Source: Rugosibacter sp. (GTDB lineage Bacteria > Pseudomonadota > Gammaproteobacteria > Burkholderiales > Rhodocyclaceae). Taken from it: 64,000 nt of DNA. The notes beneath the pieces are model-generated. The model was not told the DNA's origin and ran no database searches. It saw only the letters and a list, made by a program, of their open reading frames with translations. The translations under genes and the position numbers were made by a program. Below, piece by piece: positions 40,151 to 53,824 of the stretch. How positions within the stretch are numbered: position 1 is the first letter of the stretch; every line of letters starts with the position of its first letter. The DNA is taken from assembly GCA_004322535.1 (NCBI GenBank), contig SCUZ01000103.1, forward strand, positions 1 to 64,000. The letters are read 5' to 3'.

Positions 40151-40540
40151 ATGACGCAAGACACCAAATCGATCAGGGACATGAACAAGAACGAAGCCTT
40201 TGCTCGTGTCATCATCGACGCCTTGCTGATAGATCAAAGCTGGGACACCACCAATCCGAATGCCGTGCCGATCGAGGTCCATGACAATGACGAAAAGTTG
40301 AAGGCAATCGTTGATAAATGGAAAGCCTACCTTAATCATCTTGGGCAGAAGTCCATGGCTATCGAGGTTTGGGGGCCAAAACGTCTCGAACTCTTTGTCG
40401 ATCTGCTCCATGAAATGGTAGGCTTTCTCGGCGACAAGTTCAATAGTGTCGAAATATCAAACGACATCTACTCGCCAGAAGGGCATGCAAAAATCGAAAC
40501 TGATCAAGAGATGATTCGCCGAGGATCGCTCTGCTCCTAA
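40151..40540 (+). pseudogene. Chimeric remnant: HsdR-like start fused to a DUF6680-like end
   Basis: A 129-codon ORF that looks like two joined fragments. Residues 12-38 (KNEAFARVIIDALLIDQSWDTT) match the opening of type I restriction HsdR-like proteins. From about residue 45 (DEKLKAIVDKWKAYLNHL, ELFVDLLHEMVGFLGDKFN, IYSPEGHAKIETDQEMIRRG) it resembles the C-terminal part of the DUF6680 family. No catalytic motif of HsdR remains. It opens a region of gene debris ahead of the chemosensory operon. My family matches come from memory of patterns, so they are tentative. Confidence 0.5.
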
Positions 40541-40627
40541 GCGGACAGTTTGCATTGCCAATGGAGGTGAAGCAAGCTTCCTTTCGCTCTCGAAGACCAC
40601 GTCCAGAATGCTGTCGCTTCAGGGCGT

Positions 40628-40858
40628 ATGAAGGCTCATCTCACCCAACAACAACTGGCCGAACGCATGGGGGTAATGCAAGCCTGCATTAGCAAAATCG
40701 AGCACCAGAATAAAGTGACTCCGGCCTTGCTCGCACATGCAATCAAGGCGACACGCCGAAAATCTCGAGTGCTTGGAAAACGGCGATGGGGCGAAGGAAG
40801 CAATTCACAACTTGATGCAGGCAGCCGAAGGGCACTTCAATCTACTCGACTGCGATGA
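40628..40858 (+). pseudogene. Fragment of an XRE-type HTH (antitoxin-like) gene
   Basis: The frame contains a helix-turn-helix, LTQQQLAERMGVMQACISKIEHQN, preceded by open codons (FALEDHVQNAVASGR) that lack a start. It becomes nonsense after about residue 45. A different frame (40737-40991) then carries EAIHNLMQAAEGHFNLLDCDDRELLDTYNRLF, probably the rest of the same or a neighbouring gene. It is best read as a decayed toxin-antitoxin or regulator gene. Confidence 0.5.
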
Positions 40859-41428
40859 CAGAGAGTTACTCGATACCTATAACCGGCTATTCAGGTCTAT
40901 CAAGGTTCATCCTGCAGTTAAGCGACTCCAGGCCGACGCGACCAGCGGGATATCGACAAGGCATGTCCGACACGCAGTTCTTCGGTGTTAAAAGGCGCAC
41001 TCAGGTCTTCTTGTGCTCTCCCATCTGCAGAAACGCAGTCGGTGCTGCGCGCTATCGCGATGCTGGCCAGAAAGTCGGCGCTGGCGACACGGCTCACTCC
41101 GTATGAAGGCTTGCGAAAAATGACGACATGCTATGCAAGCCAACGCTCGTATCGATAATCCGACCAGATACCCTGCTGTCGACGTCTGAAAACCCTGTCG
41201 ACAACCTTGTTATTTCCCTCATTTTACGGGTAGAGAGTATCGAATACTTATCTACAATGAATACGTGTTATGGTAGCGACATAAGAGTAAATTTATGTCA
41301 AATGAATCCACCATAAAGAAGAGCGTCGGGAGGCCATCGGGGAATACGGATAAACAACCAGTTTTGTACTGGCTGCCCAGGTCGTCAATCAGAAATTACT
41401 ACACATCGCCTGTTTTTTGGATAACGAT
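40859..41428. other. Decayed region before the chemosensory operon
   Basis: There is no intact gene. It holds the tail of the frameshifted fragment above, one dispersed-motif copy (41071-41094) and an AT-rich stretch (41200-41300) that may carry the promoter for the following operon. A 45-codon ORF at 41295-41432 (start MSNESTIKKSVGRPSGNTDK) overlaps the first cheW start by 4 bp. That short ORF has a GRP-type DNA-binding tail at its start but no recognisable domain. Confidence 0.5.
41071..41094 (+). repeat. Dispersed 24-bp motif, copy 11, intergenic
   Basis: One mismatch to the consensus. It is at the left edge of the chemosensory island; no copy was found within the island (41.4-52.4 kb). 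Confidence 0.8.
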
Positions 41429-41887
41429 ATGAAAGAGTACGTTGTCATTGGTCTGGATGAGTTACGCATTGCTTTGCGCCTGTCTGTCGTCGATCGCGTG
41501 ATTCGTGCCATTTATGTAAGCCCTCTGCCCGACGCACCGGAGATTGTGTCCGGCGTGGTCAATGTCCAGGGGCGGGTGATTCCGGTTGTCAATATACGCA
41601 GGCGATTCCGCCTCGCGAACCGGCCGACGATCCTGACCGACCGGCTCGTCATCGCACACACGGCCCAAAGACCGGTGGCGCTCGTGGTCGATGCGGTGAG
41701 CGGGGTGCTCGAATATTCTGAACCGGATATTATCGACGCCGACGATATTCTCCCCGGCCTGGCGTATGTGGATGGCGTGGCGAAACGCAAAGACGGTCTG
41801 ATCCTCATCCACGATCTGGGTCGGTTTCTGTCGCTGGATGAAGAGTCTGCACTCGAACGTGCCATGACGCCGGCCGGAGGCCGGTAA
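41429..41887 (+). CDS. CheW-domain protein (WspB-like)
   Basis: A 152-residue single CheW domain that couples receptor and kinase. The signatures are ALRLSVVDRVIRAIYVSPLPDAPEIVSGVVNVQGRVIPVVNIRRRF (split here only by normal loops) and LVVDAVSGVLEY. I start at the ATG at 41429; a TTG four codons earlier is possible. It is the first gene of the Wsp-like operon and is followed after 1 bp by cheR. The position and the CheW-CheR-CheW order match wspB-wspC-wspD. Confidence 0.85.
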   Translation: MKEYVVIGLDELRIALRLSVVDRVIRAIYVSPLPDAPEIVSGVVNVQGRVIPVVNIRRRFRLANRPTILTDRLVIAHTAQRPVALVVDAVSGVLEYSEPDIIDADDILPGLAYVDGVAKRKDGLILIHDLGRFLSLDEESALERAMTPAGGR

Positions 41888-41888
41888 A

Positions 41889-43304
41889 ATGAACAAGGCA
41901 TTTTCAGATCAACTCAGCATGTCCCTGAGCGATCTGCTTTCTGCGCAGACCGGTTTGCATTTTCCCCAAGAACGCTGGCGCGATCTCGAGCGCGGCATCA
42001 CCGCCGCCGCTCCCGCCTTCGGCATGCCGGATGCGGAATCGTGCGCACACCGGCTCCTGTCCGCGCCGCTGACACACCACCAGATCGAGGTCCTTGCCAG
42101 TCACCTGACCGTGGGCGAGACCTATTTTTTCCGCGAGAAGATGAGCTTTGAGGCGCTCGAGCAGCACATTCTCCCGGAACTCATCCGCGCGCGTGCGCAC
42201 GCCGGACGGCGCCTGCGCATCTGGAGCGCCGGCTGCTGCACGGGCGAGGAGCCCTACTCCGTCGCCATGCTCCTCGACCGGCTGATTCCGGATCAGAAGG
42301 ACTGGAACATTACCCTCCTGGCCACCGACATCAATCCGGCATTCCTGCGCAAGGCGGCCGAGGGCGTATATGGCGAATGGTCGTTCCGCAGTGCACCGGA
42401 CTGGCTTCAGGCGCGGTACTTCAGGCGGAGAAAAGACAAGCGTTTCGAATTATTGCCGCATATCCGCAAACGGGTGACCTTTGCCTGTCTCAATTTTGCC
42501 GAGGATGTTTATCCCTCGCTCATGACCAATACCAATGCGATGGATGTGATCCTCTGTCGCAATGTGCTGATGTATTTCAGCCCGGCATGGGTGAAGAAGG
42601 TTGCGCAGAATTTCCACCGGTCACTCGTCGATGGCGGATGGCTCATCGTCAGTCCGACGGAAACCTCGAACAGCCTGTTTCCACAGTTCAAGGCCACCAC
42701 CTTTCCCGGGGCGGTGCTCTATCGCAAGACCAAGGGTGCGGAATCACCGGCAGTGCCTGCCGGGCATCCCATCTCGCCGTTTGACTCGTTACCCGATACT
42801 TTGCGCATGCCGGAAGCAGTGACGGGCGCATCAGTTCAATCCGTGGCGGCAGAGCCGGCTGCAATCCATCCATCGCACCAGGAGGAGCGGGATGCCCTCT
42901 GCCGCACTGCCCATTTCTGCGCCGATCAGGGCAGGCTCGCCGAGGCGACGGCGTGGTGCGAGAAAGCCATCGCTGCCGACAAGCTTGATCCAACAACCCA
43001 TTATCTCCTTGCCACCATTCTGCAGGAGCAGGGAGAAAATGACCGTGCGGTGCAAGCGCTGCTGCATGCGCTTTATCTCGCTCCGGATTTCGTGCTGGCA
43101 CACTTTGCCCTGGGCAACCTGCGTCTGTCGCAGGGGCGGCATCGCGAGGCGCGGCGACATTTCAGCAATGCGCAGGCGCTGCTGCATACGCACACGCAGG
43201 ACGAGATACTGCCGGAGTCAGAGGGTTTGACCGCCGGCCGGCTTGGCGAGATCATTGCGTCGGTGCAGTTGAGTTTGCCGCATCTGACAGTCGCGAGCGG
43301 CTGA
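41889..43304 (+). CDS. CheR methyltransferase with C-terminal TPR (WspC-like)
   Basis: A 471-residue protein that methylates receptor glutamates using SAM. The N-terminal helical domain is about 1-80. The catalytic domain has GETYFFREKMSFEALEQ, IWSAGCCTGEEPYSVAML, DINPAFLRKAAEGVYGEWSFR and DVILCRNVLMYFSPAW. After residue 320 two or three TPR units follow (AHFCADQGRLAEATAWCEKAI, YLLATILQEQGENDRAVQALLHALYLAP). The TPR extension is the mark of WspC and FrzF-like CheRs, as opposed to flagellar CheR. Confidence 0.9.
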   Translation: MNKAFSDQLSMSLSDLLSAQTGLHFPQERWRDLERGITAAAPAFGMPDAESCAHRLLSAPLTHHQIEVLASHLTVGETYFFREKMSFEALEQHILPELIRARAHAGRRLRIWSAGCCTGEEPYSVAMLLDRLIPDQKDWNITLLATDINPAFLRKAAEGVYGEWSFRSAPDWLQARYFRRRKDKRFELLPHIRKRVTFACLNFAEDVYPSLMTNTNAMDVILCRNVLMYFSPAWVKKVAQNFHRSLVDGGWLIVSPTETSNSLFPQFKATTFPGAVLYRKTKGAESPAVPAGHPISPFDSLPDTLRMPEAVTGASVQSVAAEPAAIHPSHQEERDALCRTAHFCADQGRLAEATAWCEKAIAADKLDPTTHYLLATILQEQGENDRAVQALLHALYLAPDFVLAHFALGNLRLSQGRHREARRHFSNAQALLHTHTQDEILPESEGLTAGRLGEIIASVQLSLPHLTVASG

Positions 43305-43317
43305 AGGAAGAGCCTGT

Positions 43318-43950
43318 ATGGACGCCAGTGACCCAAAACCGCGTAAGCCGACAACCACCGACTGGGATAAGGTCAAGCAGCGTCTGGCGGCTGCGCGCGT
43401 CGCCGTTGAGCACGTCTGGGCGCCTACCGCGGAAGAGACGCAACGCATCCTGAAGGCCCGGGCGCAGGCGCTGGCCCGGGAGCCCGCGCCGGCGGAGACC
43501 GCCGATGAGCGCATCGAGGTGGTGGAATTCCTCCTTGCCCACGAATGCTATGCGATCGAGTCATCGTACGTCCGCGAGGTCTTCCTCACGGAAAACCTGA
43601 CGCCGCTGCCGTGCACACCGGCCTTCGTGCTCGGTATCGTCAACCTGCGCAGCGAGATACTCTCGGTCATCGACATCAGGAAATTCTTCAACCTGCCGGA
43701 GAAGGGGTTGACCGATCTTGACAAGATCATCGTGCTGCAATCCGGCAGCATGCTGTTCGGCATCATGGCGGATGCGATTACCGGTGTCCGCCGCATTCCG
43801 GTGGCCGACATCCAGCCGTCCCTGCCCACGCTCACCGGCGTCCGTCAGGAATACCTGAAAGGCGTGACACCCGGGCGTACCGTGATTCTCGATGCGAAAA
43901 AGCTTCTGACGGATGAACACATCATCGTGCAAGAACAGGTGTCCGGATAG
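43318..43950 (+). CDS. CheW-domain protein (WspD-like)
   Basis: A 210-residue adaptor. About 60 charged residues (KQRLAAARVAVEHVWAPTAEETQRI) precede a CheW domain starting RIEVVEFLLAHECYAIESSYVREVF. Then come VLGIVNLRSEILSVIDIRKFFNLP and IMADAITGVRRIPV. The N-terminal extension resembles WspD, which differs from WspB in this way. It lies 13 bp after cheR and before a gap with one small ORF. Confidence 0.87.
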   Translation: MDASDPKPRKPTTTDWDKVKQRLAAARVAVEHVWAPTAEETQRILKARAQALAREPAPAETADERIEVVEFLLAHECYAIESSYVREVFLTENLTPLPCTPAFVLGIVNLRSEILSVIDIRKFFNLPEKGLTDLDKIIVLQSGSMLFGIMADAITGVRRIPVADIQPSLPTLTGVRQEYLKGVTPGRTVILDAKKLLTDEHIIVQEQVSG

Positions 43951-44010
43951 AGGCGCCGGCATTCGAACTTACCCGACTGCCGCCCGTAACGCACACAAGG
44001 AGAACAGAGC

Positions 44011-44202
44011 ATGAAATGGTTCCTCGAATTTACAGTGCGGGTGATTGCAACCGTGTGCGATCTTGAGACTATTCGCACCCTTGCTGGCCAGGTGCGGGCC
44101 GCGATTCCCGAAGCGCATCTGTCGAGAAACCGTGCGACACAGAATGTTCCTCTTGATGGTTCCCTTAGCACGTTTTTTAGAAGAGAAAGGACAACAATAT
44201 GA
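44011..44202 (+). CDS. Small hypothetical protein in the Wsp-like operon
   Basis: A 63-residue ORF ([20 protein letters not shown]...). It has a strong AAGGAG ribosome site 8 bases before the ATG, and its stop overlaps the receptor's ATG (ATGA), so translation is probably coupled. The middle ([19 protein letters not shown]) could be helical and the end is basic. I recognise no family. It may be a leader or regulator of the receptor, or just a chance ORF in the 248-bp gap. Confidence 0.45.
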
Positions 44203-45662
44203 AATGGACCGTGGGAATAAAAATCGGAGCCGGATACGTTCTGGCATTGATCGTCCTGTGCATCTTTGGCACAGTCTCATACCGAAACATCACCGAGTTT
44301 ATCTACGCCGCCCAGATGCGGAGTCATACCAACCAGGTGCTTCTGACTCTCCAGGAAACGCTTTCCACCATGCAGGATGCCGAGACCGGGCAACGCGGCT
44401 ACATCATTACCGGGGAGGAGCGGTATCTGGAACCGTATCAGACTGGCACGGCCGTGGTGAATCAAACCATCCAGAATCTCCGCAGGCTGACGGCCGACAA
44501 CCCCAACCAGCAAAGGCGGCTCGACGCCATCGAACCCCTGATCGCCGGCAAGATCAGTGAGCTCAGGCAAACGATCGATTTGCGCAGAAGCAAGGGGTTT
44601 GATGCCACGTTGCAGGTGATTCAGATGGACAAGGGAAAGAAGGTAATGGATGACTTCCGCAAGATAATCGCCGAAATGGGGAACGAAGAGAGACTGCTTT
44701 TGGAGCAGCGCGATGCCAAGGTGCAGGCCAGCAGTGAAATCACGATCTCCATTCTTGTTTACGGCACCGCGTTTGCTTTCGTCGTGTTGACCATGGTCGG
44801 TTTCTTTATCACACGCACCATCACCGGCCAGCTCAGGGAAAGTATCGCCCTGCTATCGTCGTCCTCCGCCGAAATTCTCGCCACCACGACGCAAGTCGCT
44901 TCGAGCGCGGCCGAGGCTGCGGCAGCGGTAAGCGAGACCACGGTCACGGTGGAGGAAGTCAAACAGACCGCGCAGATGGCGAGCCAGAAAGCAAAGTACG
45001 TTTCCGACAGTGCGCAGAAAGCTTCGAACGTCTCCCAGGCCGGGCGCAAGTCGGTCACGGACGCTATCCAGGGAATGCACCACATCCAGGAACAGATGGA
45101 AGCTATCGCCGAGAGCATTGTGCGGCTGGCGGAACAGAGCCAGGCGATTGGCGAGATCATCGCCACGGTCAATGACCTTGCCGAGCAATCGAATGTGCTG
45201 GCGGTGAATGCGGCCATCGAGGCGGCCAAGGCCGGGGAGCAGGGCAAAGGTTTCGCAGTGGTGGCACAAGAAGTGAAGAGCCTCGCCGATCAATCCAAGC
45301 AGGCAACCACCCAAGTACGCGCGATTCTTGGCGACATCCAGAAGGCCACCAGCACAGCGGTGCTGGCCACCGAGCAGGGTAACAAGGCGGTGGAAGCCGG
45401 CGTCAAGCAAACCGGGGAAACGGGCGAATCCATTCGGCTGCTGGCCGAAAGCATCAGTGAAGCGGCGCAAGCCGCCACCCAGATCGCGGCCTCGAGCCAG
45501 CAGCAGATGGCGGGCATGGATCAGGTGGCACTGGCCATGGACAACATCAAGCAGGCCAGCATGCAGAACGTCGCCGGCACCAAACAGGCGGAAGTCGCCG
45601 CCCAGCAACTGCATGATCTGGGGCAACGGCTGAGTTCCCTGATCGGGAGCCGGGCTGGCTGA
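44199..45662 (+). CDS. Methyl-accepting chemotaxis protein with CHASE3 sensor (WspA-like)
   Basis: A 487-residue receptor. TM1 lies about 8-28. A periplasmic CHASE3 domain covers about 30-185 with the marker [20 protein letters not shown]2 is at about 188-208 ([19 protein letters not shown]). There is little HAMP, then a long signalling coiled coil whose hairpin tip is [24 protein letters not shown]. No C-terminal CheR-docking pentapeptide is seen. Its place between two CheW genes and CheA fits WspA, though the CHASE3 sensor indicates its own stimulus. Confidence 0.9.
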
Positions 45663-45683
45663 TCCGGAGAGCGGAACGAGAGC

Positions 45684-47999
45684 ATGGCCAAAAAAAACGA
45701 CGCCTTCCTGATAAAGCTCCTCGCGACCTTCCGGGTCGAGGCGGACGAACACCTCAGGGCGCTGTCCACAGGCCTTCTGGCGCTTGAAAAAGCACCGGGG
45801 GATGGGCGGCACGCGGACATTATCGAGAAAATCTTTCGCGTGACGCACAGCCTGAAGGGCGCTGCCCGGGCCGTGAACCTCACGGAGATCGAATCGGTGT
45901 GCCAGGCACTGGAGAGCATATTTGCCGCGCTGAAAGACAACGCTGTTGCCATTTCGCCGACGCTCCTGGATTTGCTGTATCAGTCGGCAGATGCTCTCAG
46001 CGTACTTCTTGCTCCGAATGCGCCGACAAAACCGGCAGTCGCACCGTTGATACGCCGGCTTAACGATGCGCTGAAGGGGCCAGCGCCCATGCGCGAAGAA
46101 GCGTCCCCGGCAATTCCGCGACAGGTGGAGGCTGTGCTGCTTTCCGGCCCCGCATCGCCTGCAGATGCTGACTTGCAGACTGCGCCTGCGGCCCTCGACC
46201 TTCTGTCCGAGACAGTCAGAATATCCACGGCGAAGCTTGACGCGGTGATGCGGCAGACCGAGGAATTGCTTGCGCCGCGGCTGGCGACAGACCAGCGCGC
46301 CAGGGAAGTGCGCGAAACGAGCGCAATGCTCGCGGACTGGAAAAAGCAATGGGCCAGTATCCGACCAACCCTGCGGGCGATGGAGCGCTCAGCGGCACGT
46401 ACCGGCAAGGGAAACGGAACCGCCAAAGAACAGCAGAAATTTGCGTGGCTGTTCGAACATCTGGATGCGGGAAGCCTTTTTGTGAAAACGCTCGAGACCC
46501 GGCTGGCCCGGCTGGGAAAGGCCGCCGAGCACGATCATCGCGCACTGGCCGGAATGGTAGACGGACTTTTGCACGACGTGAAGGAGATGCACCTGTTGCC
46601 GTTTTCTTCGCTGCTCGAAGTCTTTCCGCGATTCGTCCGCGAACTTGCGCGCGATCAAGGCAAGCTCGTGGAGCTGACAATCCATGGCGGCGAACTCAAG
46701 ATCGACCGACGTATTCTCGAAGAGATGAAGGATGCGCTAATGCACATGATCCGCAATTGTATTGACCATGGCATTGAAACGCCGGCAGTACGCGAACAGA
46801 AACAAAAACCCCCGTGCGGCACGATCACGCTCGCGATTGCGCAGAAAGACAGCGGCAAGGCCGAGGTACTCGTCACTGATGACGGCACGGGCATTGACGC
46901 CGGACAGATAAAGGCGGCGGCCCGCAAACTTGGTCTGGTCTCTACCGAAGAGACGGCACAGCTTGGCGAGCACGAGGCGTTGATGCTCGCCTTCCAGTCC
47001 GGCATTTCTACCAGCTCGATCATCACCGACATTTCGGGGCGGGGGCTGGGGCTCGCCATTGTGCGCGAAAAGGTCGAGCAGCTGGGCGGTACCGTTGCGA
47101 TCGAGTCGCATCCTGATGCCGGCACGACTTTCCGGATTGCCCTGCCGCTGACACTGGCCAATTTTCGGGGCGTCCTCGTTGGTGTCGGCGGGCAGTTTTT
47201 CATTATCCCCATGGCCAGCATCGGGCGCGTGGCGCGCCTGGCGGACATGGACATCCGGACCGTGGAAAACCGGGAAACGATTTCCCTCGACGAAAAAGCA
47301 GTCTCTCTGGTGCGGCTTGGCGACGTGCTGGGACTGCCATCGAAAGCGGCGGCGGGAAAATCTGCAGGCGAGATGGCCATCGTGCTCGATTTGGGATCCA
47401 CGCGCATCGCATTCCAGGTGGACGAGGTTATCGGGGAACAGGAGGTACTGGTAAAACCTCTGGGCCCGCAGCTCGCGCGCGTGCGCAATATCGCCGGCGC
47501 GAGCGTACTGGGGACGGGCCAGGTCGTGCCTGTGCTGAACGTTCCCGATCTGATGAAATCGGCCGTGAAGTTTGCGTCGGCGCCACGTGCGGCGGGCATG
47601 CCCGTGCAGCCTGCGGAAACAAGAACGCAGTCCGTGCTGGTAGTGGAGGATTCGATTACCTCGCGTGCGCTGCTCAAGAATATCCTGGAATCGGCGGGTT
47701 ACGCTGTTACCACTGCCGTGGACGGGGTTGACGCTTATACCGTGCTCAAGACTGCGGTGTTCGATCTGGTTGTCTCCGATGTGGAGATGCCGCGCATGGA
47801 CGGATTCGAGCTTACGGCGAAGGTGCGTTCAGACAAGCAGCTTGCGGAGCTGCCGATCGTGCTGGTGACGGCGCTGGAGTCGCACGAGCATCGCGAGCGC
47901 GGGATCGACGTCGGCGCCAATGCCTATATCGTGAAAAGCAGCTTCGACCAGAGCAATTTGCTGGAGGTCATCCGGCGCCTGATCGGAACGATGCCATGA
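45684..47999 (+). CDS. Hybrid CheA histidine kinase with receiver domain (WspE-like)
   Basis: A 771-residue kinase. An Hpt domain is at the N-terminus with the phospho-histidine in RVTHSLKGAARAV (about residue 54). The ATPase domain has LMHMIRNCIDHGIE (N box), VTDDGTGIDAGQI and GRGLGLAIVREKVEQLGG. A CheW-like domain spans about 490-625. A receiver domain ends the protein (SVLVVEDSITSRALL, VVSDVEMPRMDGFEL), with the phospho-accepting aspartate. CheA fused to a C-terminal receiver is the WspE/FrzE layout; no P2 domain is visible. Confidence 0.92.
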   Translation: MAKKNDAFLIKLLATFRVEADEHLRALSTGLLALEKAPGDGRHADIIEKIFRVTHSLKGAARAVNLTEIESVCQALESIFAALKDNAVAISPTLLDLLYQSADALSVLLAPNAPTKPAVAPLIRRLNDALKGPAPMREEASPAIPRQVEAVLLSGPASPADADLQTAPAALDLLSETVRISTAKLDAVMRQTEELLAPRLATDQRAREVRETSAMLADWKKQWASIRPTLRAMERSAARTGKGNGTAKEQQKFAWLFEHLDAGSLFVKTLETRLARLGKAAEHDHRALAGMVDGLLHDVKEMHLLPFSSLLEVFPRFVRELARDQGKLVELTIHGGELKIDRRILEEMKDALMHMIRNCIDHGIETPAVREQKQKPPCGTITLAIAQKDSGKAEVLVTDDGTGIDAGQIKAAARKLGLVSTEETAQLGEHEALMLAFQSGISTSSIITDISGRGLGLAIVREKVEQLGGTVAIESHPDAGTTFRIALPLTLANFRGVLVGVGGQFFIIPMASIGRVARLADMDIRTVENRETISLDEKAVSLVRLGDVLGLPSKAAAGKSAGEMAIVLDLGSTRIAFQVDEVIGEQEVLVKPLGPQLARVRNIAGASVLGTGQVVPVLNVPDLMKSAVKFASAPRAAGMPVQPAETRTQSVLVVEDSITSRALLKNILESAGYAVTTAVDGVDAYTVLKTAVFDLVVSDVEMPRMDGFELTAKVRSDKQLAELPIVLVTALESHEHRERGIDVGANAYIVKSSFDQSNLLEVIRRLIGTMP

Positions 48000-48009
48000 G
48001 GCCCTTCCC

Positions 48010-49071
48010 GTGATCAATGTCCTGATCGTTGAAGATTCGCCGGTGGTGCGTGAATTCCTCATTCACATTCTCAGTGCGGATGCCGGCATCCGGATAGCCG
48101 GCACCGCGCAGGACGGCGAGGAAGCGCTCGACGCCGTGCGCCGCCATCGACCCGATGTGATCACGATGGACATCCATATGCCGAAACTGAACGGGCTGGA
48201 GGCTACGCGCCGGATCATGGAAACGCAGCCGACGCCCATCATCGTTGTCAGCGGCAGCGAGGATCCCCGCGAGGTGGTGACGACATTCGATGCGATGGAG
48301 GCAGGTGCGCTGGCCGTGCTGCGCCGACCAACGGGCATCGGCCATCCGGACCACGAGGCCACGGCCCGCGAACTGGTGCAGACGGTGAAATTGATGTCGG
48401 AGGTAAAGGTGGTGCGACGCTGGCCGAAAACGCGACGTACGGGGCCGGCCCCGCGACCGGTGGAGATGGGACTTGCGCAAGAACCGGCAAAGGTGCGGAT
48501 TGTCGCCATCGGCGCCTCGACCGGCGGTCCGCCGGTGCTGCACACCATTTTCGCGGGACTACCAAAGAATTTTCCGGTACCGCTGCTGGTCGTGCAGCAC
48601 ATGGCGCCCGGTTTTATGCAGGGGTTCGTCGAGTGGCTGGCGGAGTCGTCCGACCGGCCTGTTCATGTCGCCAGGCACGGCGAGTCCGTGCTACCCGGCC
48701 ATGTCTACGTCGCTCCCGATGAATGCCAGATGAAAGTGGTGCACGGAGGAAAGATTGCCTTGACCCAGGATGAACTCGAGAATGGGCTGCGTCCCTCCGT
48801 TTCCTATTTGTTTCGCTCGATCGCCGAGGTCTATGGTTGCAATGCCGTTGCCGGCCTGCTCACCGGCATGGGGCGCGACGGCGCCGAGGAGTTGCGGCAG
48901 CTGAAAGAAAAAGGTGCGGTCACCTTCGTCCAGGACAAGGCCAGCTCCGTGGTCCATGGCATGCCGGGCGAGGCCATAAGACTCGATGCGGCGATGCTGG
49001 TGTTGCCGCCGGAGAAAATCGCTGCAGTGCTGACGAATCTGGTGAACCACCAAAATAAACAAGGAGCGTAA
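48010..49071 (+). CDS. CheB methylesterase (WspF-like)
   Basis: A 353-residue response regulator-methylesterase. The receiver domain has MINVLIVEDSPVVREFL and ITMDIHMPKLNG with the phosphorylatable Asp. The catalytic domain has IVAIGASTGGPPVLH (Ser), VVQHMAPGFMQ (His) and LLTGMGRDGAEEL (Asp). It removes receptor methyl groups and so adapts or silences the pathway; loss of WspF in pseudomonads locks the Wsp system on. It lies 10 bp after cheA. Confidence 0.92.
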   Translation: MINVLIVEDSPVVREFLIHILSADAGIRIAGTAQDGEEALDAVRRHRPDVITMDIHMPKLNGLEATRRIMETQPTPIIVVSGSEDPREVVTTFDAMEAGALAVLRRPTGIGHPDHEATARELVQTVKLMSEVKVVRRWPKTRRTGPAPRPVEMGLAQEPAKVRIVAIGASTGGPPVLHTIFAGLPKNFPVPLLVVQHMAPGFMQGFVEWLAESSDRPVHVARHGESVLPGHVYVAPDECQMKVVHGGKIALTQDELENGLRPSVSYLFRSIAEVYGCNAVAGLLTGMGRDGAEELRQLKEKGAVTFVQDKASSVVHGMPGEAIRLDAAMLVLPPEKIAAVLTNLVNHQNKQGA

Positions 49072-49073
49072 CC

Positions 49074-52000
49074 ATGAAATCCAAAAAGAAGAACGCCATC
49101 GAAATTCTCATCGCCGAGGACAGTCCGACCCAGGCGGAAAAGTTGCAGCACCTGCTCGAGGAATGCGGCTACATGGTCACCACTGCGTCCGATGGCAAGC
49201 AGGCTCTGATATTGGCCCAGCAGCGCAAGCCGGCGCTGGTTATCAGCGACATCGTGATGCCCGAGATGAACGGCTATGAATTGTGCAAGGCGATCAAGTC
49301 CGATGAGGCGTTGAAGGATATCCCGGTCATTCTGGTGACTACCCTGTCCGACGTCATGGACATCATGAGGGGGCTGGAGTGCGGCGCCGACAACTTCATC
49401 CGCAAGCCGTATGAGGAAAAATACCTGCTTGCCCGCGTCAATTACCTGCTTATGAATCAGGAAATGCGCAAGAGCCAGAAGATGCAGATAGGGATGGAAA
49501 TCCATCTCGGCGGACAAAGACATTTCATCACCGCCGAACGGCAGCAGATTGTGGACCTGCTGATCTCGGTCTATGAAGAGGCAGTGCATATCAGCGAGGA
49601 GCTCAAGTTGCGGCAACGCGAGCTGGCCGACTCGAACCGTTCCCTGACCGGCCTCTACCACATCGCGGAAGGACTGAACCGCGCGGTCAGCGAACGCGAG
49701 GTGTGCGAGAAGGCGCTCGAGCATGCGCTTGAGCTGCCAGGGGTACAGGCAGGGTGGATTTCCCTGAAGGAAGGCGAGTCCGGCCTCCGGCTTGCCGCTG
49801 CACTCAACCTGCCGCCGGCATTGCTGACGGCAGGTGCGATGGATGGCTTGTGCGAATGCCGGCGCCGCTTTCTCGCAGGGAATATGGATCATGTCACCAA
49901 CATTCTGGAATGCGAACGACTGCAGTCTGCTGTGGGCGACACGAATGGCTTGCGCTACCACGCCAGCGTGCCGTTGTGGATCGGCGAGCGCATGTTGGGG
50001 ATCCTGAACATGGTGGGCGCGGATCAGGGTCTGTTCAAGGATGAAGAGCTGGAAATGCTTTACGGTGTCGGGCACCAGATAGGTATCGCGCTGGAGCGCG
50101 CCCGGCTGCACGAGGGCCTGGAACAACTGGTGGAGGAGCGCACCGCCGCGCTCACCGCAGAGATTGCCGAACGCAAGCGTGCGGAGCTGGCTGTGCAGCA
50201 AAGCGAAGTGAAATTCAGGGCGCTGTTCGAGAACGCGAACGACGCCATCTTCCTCATGATGGAAGGTGCCATGATTGACTGTAATCCAAAAACGGAACAA
50301 ATGTTTCGATGCCGGCGCGAGGAGATTCTAAGCCTGAAACCACATGAGTTCTCACCACCGTTTCAGCCGGATGGGCGCGATTCGCTGGAGAAAGCACGCG
50401 AGAAGATCGTCGCAGCTTTGTCCGGCGTGCCGCAAGTCTTCGAATGGCAGTACAAGACGTTCGATGGAATACTCGTTGATACCGAGGTAAGCCTCAATCA
50501 CATTGAGGTTGAGGGTAAGAAAATGTTGCAGGCCATCGTTCGGGACATTAGCGTACGCAAGGTGCAGGAGGCCAGGATCGCTCGCCTCAACCGGATTTAT
50601 GCCGTGCTCAGCGGCATCAATACCACTATCGTGCGCGTACACGATCGGCAGCAGCTCTTCGAGGAGGCGTGTCGCATCGTGGTGGAGCACGGCAAGTTCC
50701 TCTTCGCATGGATTGGTACGCTTGATCCGGACACGCAACAGGTCACGCCGGTCGCCAGGGCAGGCCATGATGATGGATACCTGGATCAGATCAACTTGAC
50801 CGCCGTCGCAGATGCTCCTGGAAACTGCCACCTGACAGCGGAAGCGATAACCCAGATGAAACCGGTGATCTGCAACGACGTCGCCACAGACAATCGCATC
50901 AGAAATTGGTGTAACGAAGCGTTAAAACGCGGCTATCGCTCCCTGGTGGTGTTTCCCCTCATTGTGAAAAACCGGCCGGTCGGCGTGTTCGTGCTCTATG
51001 CGCCGGAAACTGGCGTTTTTGATGATGAGGAGATGCGGCTTCTGATCGAGATGGCCGGTGATATTTCATTTGCCCTGGATCATCTCGAAAAAGAGCAGCG
51101 CCTCAACTATCTCGCTTATTTCGATGCCAATACCGGCCTGTCAAACCGCGCGCTGTTTCTGGACCGGGTGACTCAGCACATCGGTGGCGCACACGACGAG
51201 CAAAAGGCGTTTTCCGTGATCATGCTTGACATCGAACGGTTCAGCAGCATCAATGAGACTTTCGGCCGACAGGCCGGGGACAACCTGTTGCGTCAGATTG
51301 CAACGCGACTAAAAGAGATGCTTGATGAAACGTATATTCTGGCCCGGTTTTCGGCCGACAATTTCAGCATCGCCACGCGGGGTGACGGTGAAGGCACAGG
51401 CATCGCCCATGTTCTGGAGAAGATTTTGTCCGGCATACAGAATCAGCCATTCCTGATTGGCGAGCAGGAGCTGCGCGCTTCGGCCAGGGCAGGGATATCG
51501 TCTTATCCTGCCGACGGCGAGGACGTCGAGACCCTATTACACAATGCCGAGGCCGCACTGAAAAAGGCCAAGCTTTCCGGCGACAAGTACCTGTTCTACG
51601 CCCCTGAGTTCAATGCCCGCGTCGCCGAGAAGCTGTCGCTCGAAAACAAGCTGCGCCGGGCCTTGGAACAGAATCAACTGGTGCTGCATTACCAGCCCAA
51701 AGTCGATCTCAAGAGCGGGCAGATTTGCGGGCTTGAAGCGCTGCTACGCTGGAACGATCCCGAGACCGGACTGGTGCCGCCGATGAAATTCATCCCCTTG
51801 CTTGAAGAAACCGGGATGATTCTGGAGGCGGGTCGCTGGGCGTTGACTCAGGCAGTGTCGGATGCCCGTACATGGCAAGCAAAGGGCTTGCGCGCTCCCC
51901 GGATTGCCGTCAATGTTTCGCCGATTCAGCTTCAACAGAAAGATTTTGTCAGCATGGTGGCGAGTGTGATAGGCGGTACCGGGAATGAAACGGTCGAACT

Positions 52001-52409
52001 GGAACTGGAGATTACCGAGAGCCTGATCATGCAAGACATACGAACCAATATCCAGAAACTCAAGGCCATTCGAGAGATGGGTATCGAGGTTGCGATTGAC
52101 GATTTCGGCACCGGTTACTCCTCGCTCAGCTATATCGCCAAGCTACCGGTCAATACCCTGAAGATCGATCGGGCGTTCATCATCAACATGACCAGCAACT
52201 CCGATGACCTGAGCATCGTCTCCACCATCATTTCCCTGGCTCATTCCCTGAATCTGCGGGTAGTTGCGGAGGGCGTCGAAACCAAAGAACAGGCAAATCT
52301 CCTGCGCTTGCTCAAGTGCAACGAGATCCAGGGATTCCTGTTCAGTCTGGGTGTTCCAGCAGAACAGATCGAAACATTTCTGCACGAGAAAAAGTCACTA
52401 CTGGATTGA
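49074..52409 (+). CDS. REC-GAF-PAS-GAF-GGDEF-EAL response regulator
   Basis: An 1111-residue output protein. The receiver is at about 7-125 (EILIAEDSPTQAEKL, ISDIVMPEMNG). A GAF-like domain follows at about 200-340, a PAS domain at about 375-490 (KFRALFENANDAIFLM) and a second GAF at about 510-665. The GGDEF domain is at about 675-830 and the EAL domain at about 850-1100. The GGDEF motif is replaced by SADNF, so cyclase activity is unlikely. The EAL residues all look present: GLEALLRW, NVSPIQL, ELEITES, IDDFGTGYSS, LKIDRAF, AEGVET and EIQGFLFS. It is the apparent target of the CheA kinase, 2 bp after cheB. Confidence 0.9.
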   Translation: MKSKKKNAIEILIAEDSPTQAEKLQHLLEECGYMVTTASDGKQALILAQQRKPALVISDIVMPEMNGYELCKAIKSDEALKDIPVILVTTLSDVMDIMRGLECGADNFIRKPYEEKYLLARVNYLLMNQEMRKSQKMQIGMEIHLGGQRHFITAERQQIVDLLISVYEEAVHISEELKLRQRELADSNRSLTGLYHIAEGLNRAVSEREVCEKALEHALELPGVQAGWISLKEGESGLRLAAALNLPPALLTAGAMDGLCECRRRFLAGNMDHVTNILECERLQSAVGDTNGLRYHASVPLWIGERMLGILNMVGADQGLFKDEELEMLYGVGHQIGIALERARLHEGLEQLVEERTAALTAEIAERKRAELAVQQSEVKFRALFENANDAIFLMMEGAMIDCNPKTEQMFRCRREEILSLKPHEFSPPFQPDGRDSLEKAREKIVAALSGVPQVFEWQYKTFDGILVDTEVSLNHIEVEGKKMLQAIVRDISVRKVQEARIARLNRIYAVLSGINTTIVRVHDRQQLFEEACRIVVEHGKFLFAWIGTLDPDTQQVTPVARAGHDDGYLDQINLTAVADAPGNCHLTAEAITQMKPVICNDVATDNRIRNWCNEALKRGYRSLVVFPLIVKNRPVGVFVLYAPETGVFDDEEMRLLIEMAGDISFALDHLEKEQRLNYLAYFDANTGLSNRALFLDRVTQHIGGAHDEQKAFSVIMLDIERFSSINETFGRQAGDNLLRQIATRLKEMLDETYILARFSADNFSIATRGDGEGTGIAHVLEKILSGIQNQPFLIGEQELRASARAGISSYPADGEDVETLLHNAEAALKKAKLSGDKYLFYAPEFNARVAEKLSLENKLRRALEQNQLVLHYQPKVDLKSGQICGLEALLRWNDPETGLVPPMKFIPLLEETGMILEAGRWALTQAVSDARTWQAKGLRAPRIAVNVSPIQLQQKDFVSMVASVIGGTGNETVELELEITESLIMQDIRTNIQKLKAIREMGIEVAIDDFGTGYSSLSYIAKLPVNTLKIDRAFIINMTSNSDDLSIVSTIISLAHSLNLRVVAEGVETKEQANLLRLLKCNEIQGFLFSLGVPAEQIETFLHEKKSLLD

Positions 52410-52496
52410 ATGGGATCGCGTCAGCCGTCCAGCGTAGAATCGGCAGTTTAGACAGCGGCGAAACTTCGGCGAATCATTCAGCGCGAACAGTCAAGA

Positions 52497-52529
52497 AAAA
52501 AGGCCGACTGCTCCCAGTCGGCCTTTTTG
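52497..52529 (+). terminator. Rho-independent terminator of the chemosensory operon
   Basis: AAGGCCGACTG / CAGTCGGCCTTTTT stem with a short loop, six A before and five T after. It is about 90 bp past the stop of the EAL protein. Confidence 0.9.
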
Positions 52530-52682
52530 GCTATTAGGAGGATCAAACTCCCAATTCGCATTGGGAATCTTTAGGACTCGGCATATATATATATATAAGG
52601 AAAATCCAAATCTTGGCTACCAATAGGCTACTAATTAAGTTACGCGAAATAAAACTGCTTATGGGTTATCACAAGTTATTGA

Positions 52683-52733
52683 TTATTGGTTTGCCCAGTG
52701 CGACTCGAACTCGTAACCAAAGGATTGTGAGAC
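52683..52733 (-). repeat. Diverged copy of the 3' half of tRNA-Ile(CAU)
   Basis: Aligned without gaps to 53744-53794, 37 of 51 positions agree, including GCCCAG, GACT, GAAC and the ACCAA region. The orientation is the same as the tRNA and the copy ends at the CCA. The T-stem no longer pairs, so it is not a functional tRNA. It may be an old attachment-site duplication. Confidence 0.55.
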
Positions 52734-53747: not shown

Positions 53748-53824
53748 TGGTGGGCCCAGCTGGACTTGAACCAGCGACCAATCGATTATGAGTCGACTGC
53801 TCTAACCAACTGAGCTATGGGCCC
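53748..53824 (-). tRNA. tRNA-Ile (CAU, lysidine-type)
   Basis: A complete 77-nt cloverleaf on the minus strand with encoded CCA. The acceptor stem is GGGCCC / GGGCCC, the D-arm is AGCTCAGTTGGTTAGAGC, the anticodon loop is CTCATAA (anticodon CAT at 53788-53790), and the T-arm is CTGGTTCAAGTCCAG. The body closely follows E. coli tRNA-Ile2, so I call Ile rather than Met; TilS would convert the C to lysidine to read AUA. Confidence 0.9.

Follow-up and report, generated by a model that had tools for sequence, protein, structure and literature searches.

Among chemosensory arrays, Wsp is the textbook example of one that increases c-di-GMP. A 2012 paper counted, for ACF clusters with CheR-TPR, about 20 regulators with GGDEF, one with EAL and two with both, and described ACF cluster regulators as sometimes carrying added PAS or GAF domains (PMC3447774). 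Pch of Pseudomonas aeruginosa is an EAL phosphodiesterase (PDE) with GAF, PAS and degenerate GGDEF domains, the activity of which is promoted by phosphorylated chemotaxis CheA (PMC3861689).

The window analysed here is a stretch of 64,000 nucleotides from Rugosibacter sp. (GCA_004322535.1, contig SCUZ01000103.1, positions 1-64,000 of the forward strand; genome G000 below). It contains seven genes at 41429-52409, all on the + strand, that encode CheW, CheR-TPR, a second CheW, a receptor, CheA-REC, CheB and a REC-GAF-PAS-GAF-GGDEF-EAL protein. Judging from the sequence, we consider it probable (about 0.72) that this is an ACF-type (non-taxis) operon that supplies its own receptor, kinase and adaptation enzymes and has a PDE output that lowers c-di-GMP upon control by CheA.

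The operon and its chemosensory proteins

All seven open reading frames are present in the order, positions and strand proposed by the initial annotation; Pfam confirms each domain and reproduces that order, with all matches far past its cut-offs, which disposes of chance or misannotation. The first gene encodes a CheW coupling protein (41429..41887, +; CheW 1.3e-21), with an ORF that opens at a TTG at 41417 and an ATG at 41429. It is followed by a CheR methyltransferase with TPR at the C-terminus (41889..43304, +; CheR 6.7e-48, TPR_2 6.5e-12) and by the second CheW (43318..43950, +; 3.9e-28), the domain of which comprises residues 68-199. In the chemoreceptor (44199..45662, +), a CHASE3 domain (1.7e-46) flanked by two hydrophobic stretches (9-28 and 181-205) precedes the MCP signalling domain (MCPsignal 3.3e-38); a HAMP domain was sought by Pfam and gave no match. 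The CheA-REC kinase (45684..47999, +) has Pfam matches to Hpt, HATPase_c, CheW and a C-terminal Response_reg, with His55 in the Hpt domain and both the N-box and G-box motifs. The CheB methylesterase (48010..49071, +; CheB_methylest 2.9e-60) carries a REC domain (Response_reg) and the motifs GASTGG, QHM and GMGRDG. The output protein of 1111 aa (49074..52409, +; ORF and Pfam) completes the operon, within which there is no gene for a single-domain CheY.

Successive genes are separated by 1, 13, 248, 21, 10 and 2 bp, the end of the first being taken as 41887. RNA folding places an intrinsic-terminator hairpin at the operon end (52490..52531, +). The fold of 52490-52535 has an energy of -23.9 kcal/mol and a z of -5.68, matched by none of 200 shuffles, as expected of a strong terminator; the hairpin is missing from the list of a pattern-based scan. 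A promoter scan returned 5 sites against 5.1 expected. The region 20000-41430, checked for the idea of a genomic island, holds a single tRNA-like copy, which is degenerate, and no other that scores above shuffles.

The output protein and its counterparts in related operons

Pfam matches in the output protein comprise Response_reg, two GAF stretches, PAS, GGDEF (9.3e-32) and EAL (7.5e-72), which bears out the proposed PDE-type architecture together with its extra GAF and PAS inputs. The REC domain (residues 11-122; 49104..49439, +), located by Pfam and residue alignment, is intact, with Asp 59 and Lys 111 in place. Motif reading of the degenerate GGDEF domain (51114..51584, +) finds SADNF at residues 760-764 in place of GGDEF, as first reported, and the cyclase site is dead by sequence. 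Residue alignment of the EAL domain (51645..52346, +) finds the full catalytic set, E888, N947, E979, D1009, D1010, K1030, E1066 and Q1086, at the positions that we take to be the key ones, and the claim of a complete EAL site survives this closer inspection. The GGDEF-EAL part aligns almost end to end with solved EAL proteins (4rnh, 7.6e-102; 5m3c, 9.7e-93) and matches DosP structure entries at ∼1e-72; the structure matches and the complete residue set rule out a degenerate EAL domain.

The same features recur in 27 distinct operon outputs (28 were listed, of which L113 is part of L017; L015, a GAF-PAS-GAF-GGDEF-EAL protein with SADCF and no cheB on its contig, was left out). Glu-4 of GGDEF is absent from all 27, which rules out an active cyclase, and the EAL set is complete in all 24 that are full-length. 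The Asn that contacts the GTP base (PleD N335 position) is retained in 27/27, the GD Asp in 26/27, and the REC Asp and Lys in every one. The loss of Glu-4, the intact EAL set and the retained Asn together support assignment of the output as a phosphodiesterase with a non-catalytic GGDEF domain. Four outputs (L047, L060, L091 and L112) have Asn in place of the first metal-site Asp in GGDEF, which weakens the case for a uniform GTP role of this domain. Distances between CheA proteins and between outputs correlate (Mantel r 0.75 over 24 loci, with 0 of 2000 permutations as high), a correlation that would also arise from a common species history by itself.

Nitrosospira sp. Nsp11 (L016) and Thiobacillus denitrificans RG (L014) are among the relatives that have the operon. 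In relatives, cyclase genes lie between cheA and cheB. The HAMP-GGDEF gene found there has no full-length ortholog elsewhere in the Rugosibacter genome: a search gave 17 matches, which never cover residues 1-190 of 443, and the best has 43% identity over 165 aa. Two weak matches (L022 and L023) among the 15 loci from one search were left unannotated.

In the mechanism that we propose, the CHASE3 receptor, tuned through methylation by CheR-TPR and demethylation by CheB, would control CheA, which would in turn phosphorylate the REC domain of the output protein. Phosphorylation would alter the activity of the EAL domain, whose intact site suggests hydrolysis of c-di-GMP. The GGDEF domain would not synthesise c-di-GMP and may, with its guanine-contacting Asn and Asp kept, sense GTP or a partner, while the GAF and PAS domains could add cytosolic inputs. 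It is plausible that kinase activation leads to lower c-di-GMP; against this scheme, CheA may favour its own REC or CheB over the output REC.

The sign of this response could be the opposite, with REC phosphorylation keeping the EAL domain off and kinase activation raising c-di-GMP as in Wsp. The sequence leaves activation versus inhibition unfixed, four domains (GAF, PAS, GAF and GGDEF) stand between REC and EAL, and the idea meets no direct counter-evidence; we nevertheless regard it as doubtful. Some EAL domains with full sites work mainly as receptors or scaffolds. An output acting mainly as a receptor or scaffold for c-di-GMP or GTP, with hydrolysis incidental, would fit the retention of the GTP-base Asn alongside the loss of Glu-4, and a class of trigger PDEs has been described (PMC5052742); the completeness of the EAL residues in every full-length output argues against it and makes such a role unlikely.

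CheA phylogeny and the relation to Wsp

The CheA tree, built by a quick method, has 67 rows; it omits seven of 74 loci that have no full CheA, together with L112-L115, and six of 66 CheA matches from other genomes (32-34% identity, like some of those included) were not fetched. Domains of the loci were assigned with models built from the window domains and the loci themselves, the HK model coming from 12 motif-selected segments, and Pfam was used to check a subset.

The window CheA belongs to a clade of 22 rows with 100% SH-aLRT. A fused REC-...-EAL output is present in 19 of these, counting L053 as read further in L115. L020 and L057 have a REC-GAF-GAF-PAS-HK-REC output with a REC-EAL gene downstream, an arrangement shared by L021 and L114 from outside the tree sample, and in L051 the contig edge falls right after the output REC. 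Ten of the 12 rows with HK-type outputs lie outside the clade, and only L058 among them is followed by EAL genes in the same orientation. The PDE output label requires 7 changes on the 67-row tree, in which L053 is still labelled otherwise, indicating that outputs have been swapped over longer times.

These loci also bear on the idea that the main partner of CheA is Pil-Chp or some other unlinked regulator, the output being under another kinase. A Pil-Chp-like set is present in the same genome, and cross-talk among chemosensory pathways is reported (PMC6391922). Against this, a REC-bearing gene follows cheB in 22/22 clade members, and the REC-GAF-GAF front is kept even in the two HK-swapped ones (L020 and L057); we consider an unlinked target very unlikely.

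Loci in Wsp order form a CheA clade of their own (8 rows, 100% SH-aLRT, branch 1.35), outside which the window CheA lies. One of them, L087, encodes a protein that matches 3bre, presumably P. aeruginosa WspR, at 2.6e-133; cyclase outputs are found beyond this clade too (L098, L099 and L100). The receptor gene stands before cheA in all 15 members of the window's clade with upstream sequence, and comes first in Wsp-type loci. The three Wsp-clade receptors scanned are of 4HB_MCP_1-HAMP type, as is that of L050 in the window's clade, and receptor type therefore does not define the latter. With a CheA that falls beyond the verified Wsp clade, and with a different gene order and output, the operon is not Wsp, and the initial picture of a Wsp operon with only its last gene changed is not supported; the operon belongs to a recurring family that is related to Wsp but separate. 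Recent replacement of WspR by a PDE in a true Wsp system, suggested by the shared set of seven protein types, with CheR-TPR and CheA-REC among them, and by the L050 receptor, is scarcely credible given the CheA tree, the receptor gene position and the spread of the PDE output throughout the window's clade.

Likely targets and comparison with known systems

The Rugosibacter genome has flagella and gives no match to CheZ or to a flagellar CheA. Its chemosensory sets are the operon and the Pil-Chp-like set only: of 2 MCP and 5 CheW domain matches, those outside the operon lie on contig C81 with a CheA in a 1712-aa frame, read as Pil-Chp, and the operon receptor is the sole non-pilus receptor among the MCP matches. 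The single PilZ match, a PilZN-PilZ protein of YcgR type with RxxxR and DxSxxG motifs (read by eye), is in the flagellar cluster. With 14 EAL and 17 GGDEF matches in the genome, the operon output is a single c-di-GMP input among many.

A fall in c-di-GMP here would most likely act on the flagellar brake of YcgR type, on type IV pili, or on both. One possible but unlikely reading of a flagellated genome with neither CheZ nor flagellar CheA is that the one-receptor array steers swimming by destroying c-di-GMP and releasing the YcgR brake, rather than through CheY and FliM; if true, this would be a chemosensory path to the motor via a second messenger. A search of 44 genomes included 20 with fused PDE outputs, of which 11 match FliM/N and CheZ, three FliM/N only (G000, G749 and G332), one CheZ only (G562) and five neither; it covered L017 (G764) alone among the genomes of the named loci L009-L021. 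FliM/FliN thus have no match in six of the 20, among them G820 and G764, which are near relatives; this rules out the flagellum as a general target.

The operon represents a conserved sister design with an output apparently committed to c-di-GMP breakdown and relatives with cyclase genes between cheA and cheB, which makes the sign of chemosensory c-di-GMP control comparable and testable. With one non-pilus receptor, a matching kinase, a linked output and one PilZ match, the pathway should be easy to dissect here.

The locus does not resemble a flagellar chemotaxis (F) system, defined by CheY and CheZ acting on FliM: the genome gives no CheZ match and the operon has no single-domain CheY gene. 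The ACF class is marked by a multidomain response regulator output and a CheR-TPR in the cluster, both found here, and the kind is already known from the 2012 count, which includes regulators with EAL in such clusters (PMC3447774). In the portions of the literature consulted, those of that paper included, we found no earlier description of the conserved PDE lineage, of the decay of its GGDEF domain or of the cyclase genes inserted in relatives. Halomonas chemosensory cluster 2, as described in PMC5907407, has CheR-TPR, CheA-REC, one cluster-specific receptor and a c-di-GMP enzyme output in common with the operon. Pch is likewise an EAL PDE with GAF, PAS, a degenerate GGDEF and a CheA link; it has no receiver, and its authors suggest an adaptor (PMC3861689), whereas the present output has a fused REC and is encoded within the operon.

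Wsp (wspABCDEFR of Pseudomonas and Betaproteobacteria) shares with the operon two CheW proteins, CheR-TPR, an MCP, CheA-REC, CheB and a REC output in one operon, and c-di-GMP is the output currency of both. The statement that every Wsp component is present holds for protein types; it needs qualifying for the receptor, which is CHASE3 without HAMP, and for its gene, which opens the Wsp operon and is here the fourth, before cheA. The two CheA clades are separate, and where the Wsp output is REC-GGDEF (WspR), that of the present operon is an EAL protein with a dead GGDEF domain.

The operon and its output enzyme

The operon comprises seven co-directional genes (41429-52409, from the ORFs of the window), and Pfam confirms the initially proposed order, with the domains CheW, CheR+TPR, CheW, CHASE3-MCP, Hpt-HATPase-CheW-REC, REC-CheB and REC-GAF-PAS-GAF-GGDEF-EAL. 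The first gene is called on the forward strand from an ATG at 41429, with a TTG at 41417 as a possible alternative, and RNA folding places a strong terminator hairpin 3' of the operon at 52490-52531. Motif reading finds His55 and the ATPase boxes in CheA, and the CheB motifs in CheB. The receptor has two hydrophobic stretches by sequence scan, with no Pfam match to HAMP.

The GGDEF position of the 1111-residue output reads SADNF, as the initial annotation stated, and none of the residues that we take to be the EAL signature set is missing. Its GGDEF-EAL part can be aligned to EAL proteins of known structure, among them 4rnh, 5m3c and DosP. The same pattern recurs across 27 distinct operons with fused REC-...-GGDEF-EAL outputs (L113, which lies inside L017, being counted once). 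The GGDEF Glu at position 4 is absent in all 27, and the first metal-site Asp is replaced by Asn in four; the EAL set is complete in 24/24 full-length copies, and the three truncated outputs show no mismatch in the surviving EAL part. The comparative evidence that the output is a phosphodiesterase, as predicted from these residues, is thus strong. The Asn at the PleD N335 position is kept in 27/27, and the GD Asp that follows in 26/27. The N335 position sets guanine specificity in PleD, according to PMC5907407, and the retention of base contacts beside a decayed cyclase site suggests that the degenerate GGDEF domain may have an allosteric role. In a separate lineage with REC-GGDEF-EAL-REC outputs (L071, L073, L077, L082 and L083), GGDEF is intact in 5/5, as is the EAL motif.

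The 248-bp gap 5' of the receptor gene contains, at 44011-44198, what looks by eye like an SD site, and a frame whose start resembles that of a second receptor, of 545 residues, which some relatives encode at this place. The best match in six comparisons is the receptor start in three and the segment of residues 51-83 in three, with 0-10 of 500 shuffles equally good; this is suggestive of deletion of a second receptor. At 40540-41400, 5' of the operon, broken reading frames, including a helix-turn-helix-like fragment by eye, adjoin a DUF6680 gene. The tRNA-Met gene at 53748-53824 has a degenerate copy of its 3' portion ∼1 kb away, at 52687-52731, between the operon and rpoD. The copy scores 38, where the best of 50 shuffles reaches 28, and may be the remnant of an attachment site.

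Relation to Wsp and variation among relatives

The 27 operons come from neighbourhoods fetched for 60 of the 66 non-own CheA matches and 13 of 15 other loci, later extended by L112-L115. A maximum likelihood tree of 67 CheAs was built by a quick method. Eight rows form a clade set apart with 100% SH-aLRT support; seven have a REC-GGDEF output and one has no detected output. Its loci with a complete operon recorded have the Wsp gene order, MCP first, and three scanned receptors are all 4HB_MCP_1-HAMP-MCP. The output of one member (L087) matches 3bre at 2.6e-133 (record title 'probable two-component response regulator'), which we take to be P. aeruginosa WspR. The window CheA is placed elsewhere, in a 22-row clade with 100% support, where the receptor gene precedes cheA in 15/15 members with upstream sequence. 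The proposal that the operon is Wsp with its last gene altered is therefore not borne out; it is of a known broad kind (ACF, with CheR-TPR), not Wsp. Receptor type alone cannot separate this clade from Wsp, since it varies within it: five receptors scanned with Pfam comprise three CHASE3 without HAMP and two 4HB_MCP_1, one without HAMP and one (L050) with it.

The fused phosphodiesterase output is found in 19/22 clade members (L053 being read further as L115). Two others (L020, L057) join the same REC-GAF-GAF front to PAS-HK-REC, and one (L051) stops at a contig edge. A REC-EAL gene lies downstream in L020, where it is the second gene on, in L057, and in two loci outside the tree, L114 and L021, the latter with front and kinase as separate ORFs. 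The phosphodiesterase end point thus seems to have been kept where the wiring changed. Outside the clade the pattern does not hold: of the 10 rows with an HK output there, only L058 has same-strand downstream EAL genes. Over longer times outputs have been swapped, the phosphodiesterase label requiring seven changes on the 67-row tree (L053 still labelled otherwise).

Nine of the 22 clade members carry at least one GGDEF gene between cheA and cheB. In eight of these the gene is of a kind of about 443 residues (one ORF shorter as called), with the motif GGEEI or GGDEI and the four catalytic positions kept in all eight copies; for the L010 copy Pfam gives HAMP-GGDEF, and inspection by eye suggests two transmembrane segments. 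L053/L115 has three c-di-GMP genes in this position, two of GGDEF and one of GGDEF-EAL type, so that its operon, with the REC-GAF-GAF-GGDEF-EAL output included, encodes four such proteins. Between cheA and cheB the window has just 10 bp, and a genome search found no full-length ortholog of the ∼443-residue gene elsewhere in its genome. Operons with a GGDEF gene at that point pair a predicted cyclase with a predicted phosphodiesterase; the window version keeps the predicted breakdown arm only.

Genome context and flagella

The genome spans 2.57 Mb in 115 contigs and has a listed completeness of 100%. Its two MCP and five CheW domain matches fall in this operon and in a set on contig C81, which comprises a receptor, two small RECs and a CheA of about 1710 residues and which we read as a putative Pil-Chp system. 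In a flagellar cluster, mostly read by eye from ORF starts, Pfam confirms FliM, two MotAB-type pairs and a FliA-like sigma factor; FliM begins MTQDFLSQDEVDALL, the usual CheY-binding motif. No CheZ match was found in this genome. Its sole PilZ match is a PilZN-PilZ protein of the flagellar cluster, with RxxxR and DxSxxG, whose gene adjoins one read by eye as flhB. In the cluster locus (L110, 5606-7987) the second MotAB-type pair comes immediately after the FliA-like gene; in Pseudomonas che genes lie between the two. With 14 EAL and 17 GGDEF matches, the c-di-GMP network is wider than the operon.

Among 20 genomes with the fused output, 11 have FliM/N and CheZ, three FliM/N without CheZ, one CheZ alone and five neither, so that a flagellar target is not a general rule. 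Distribution is patchy: among the matches listed, a CheA of at least 50% identity occurs in 12/297 family genomes, and matches beyond 1e-100 occur in 2/9 genomes of the genus, its own included.

Comparison with known chemosensory outputs

Phosphotransfer from CheA to the output, the sign of control and the physiological target are inferred. An output of this type has been noted before, with no analysis of it in the passages of literature searched. In the part of PMC3447774 consulted, outputs of CheR-TPR clusters are counted as some 20 GGDEF, one EAL and two with both, and the lineage described here may be among those loci. The text seen of PMC8552884 treats Wsp phylogeny, with CHASE3 absent and EAL mentioned once; that of PMC8846402 lists Wsp-WspR as the chemosensory cyclase case, and that of PMC9758175 describes binding of WspR to the phosphodiesterase RpfG. 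This search, whose scope was mostly outside the subscription literature, found no experimental study of a Wsp-like operon with a REC-fused phosphodiesterase as its output. The closest experiment in the passages searched is that of PMC3861689, in which CheA promotes the activity of the phosphodiesterase Pch; Pch has no receiver, as described there, whereas the window output has a REC domain.
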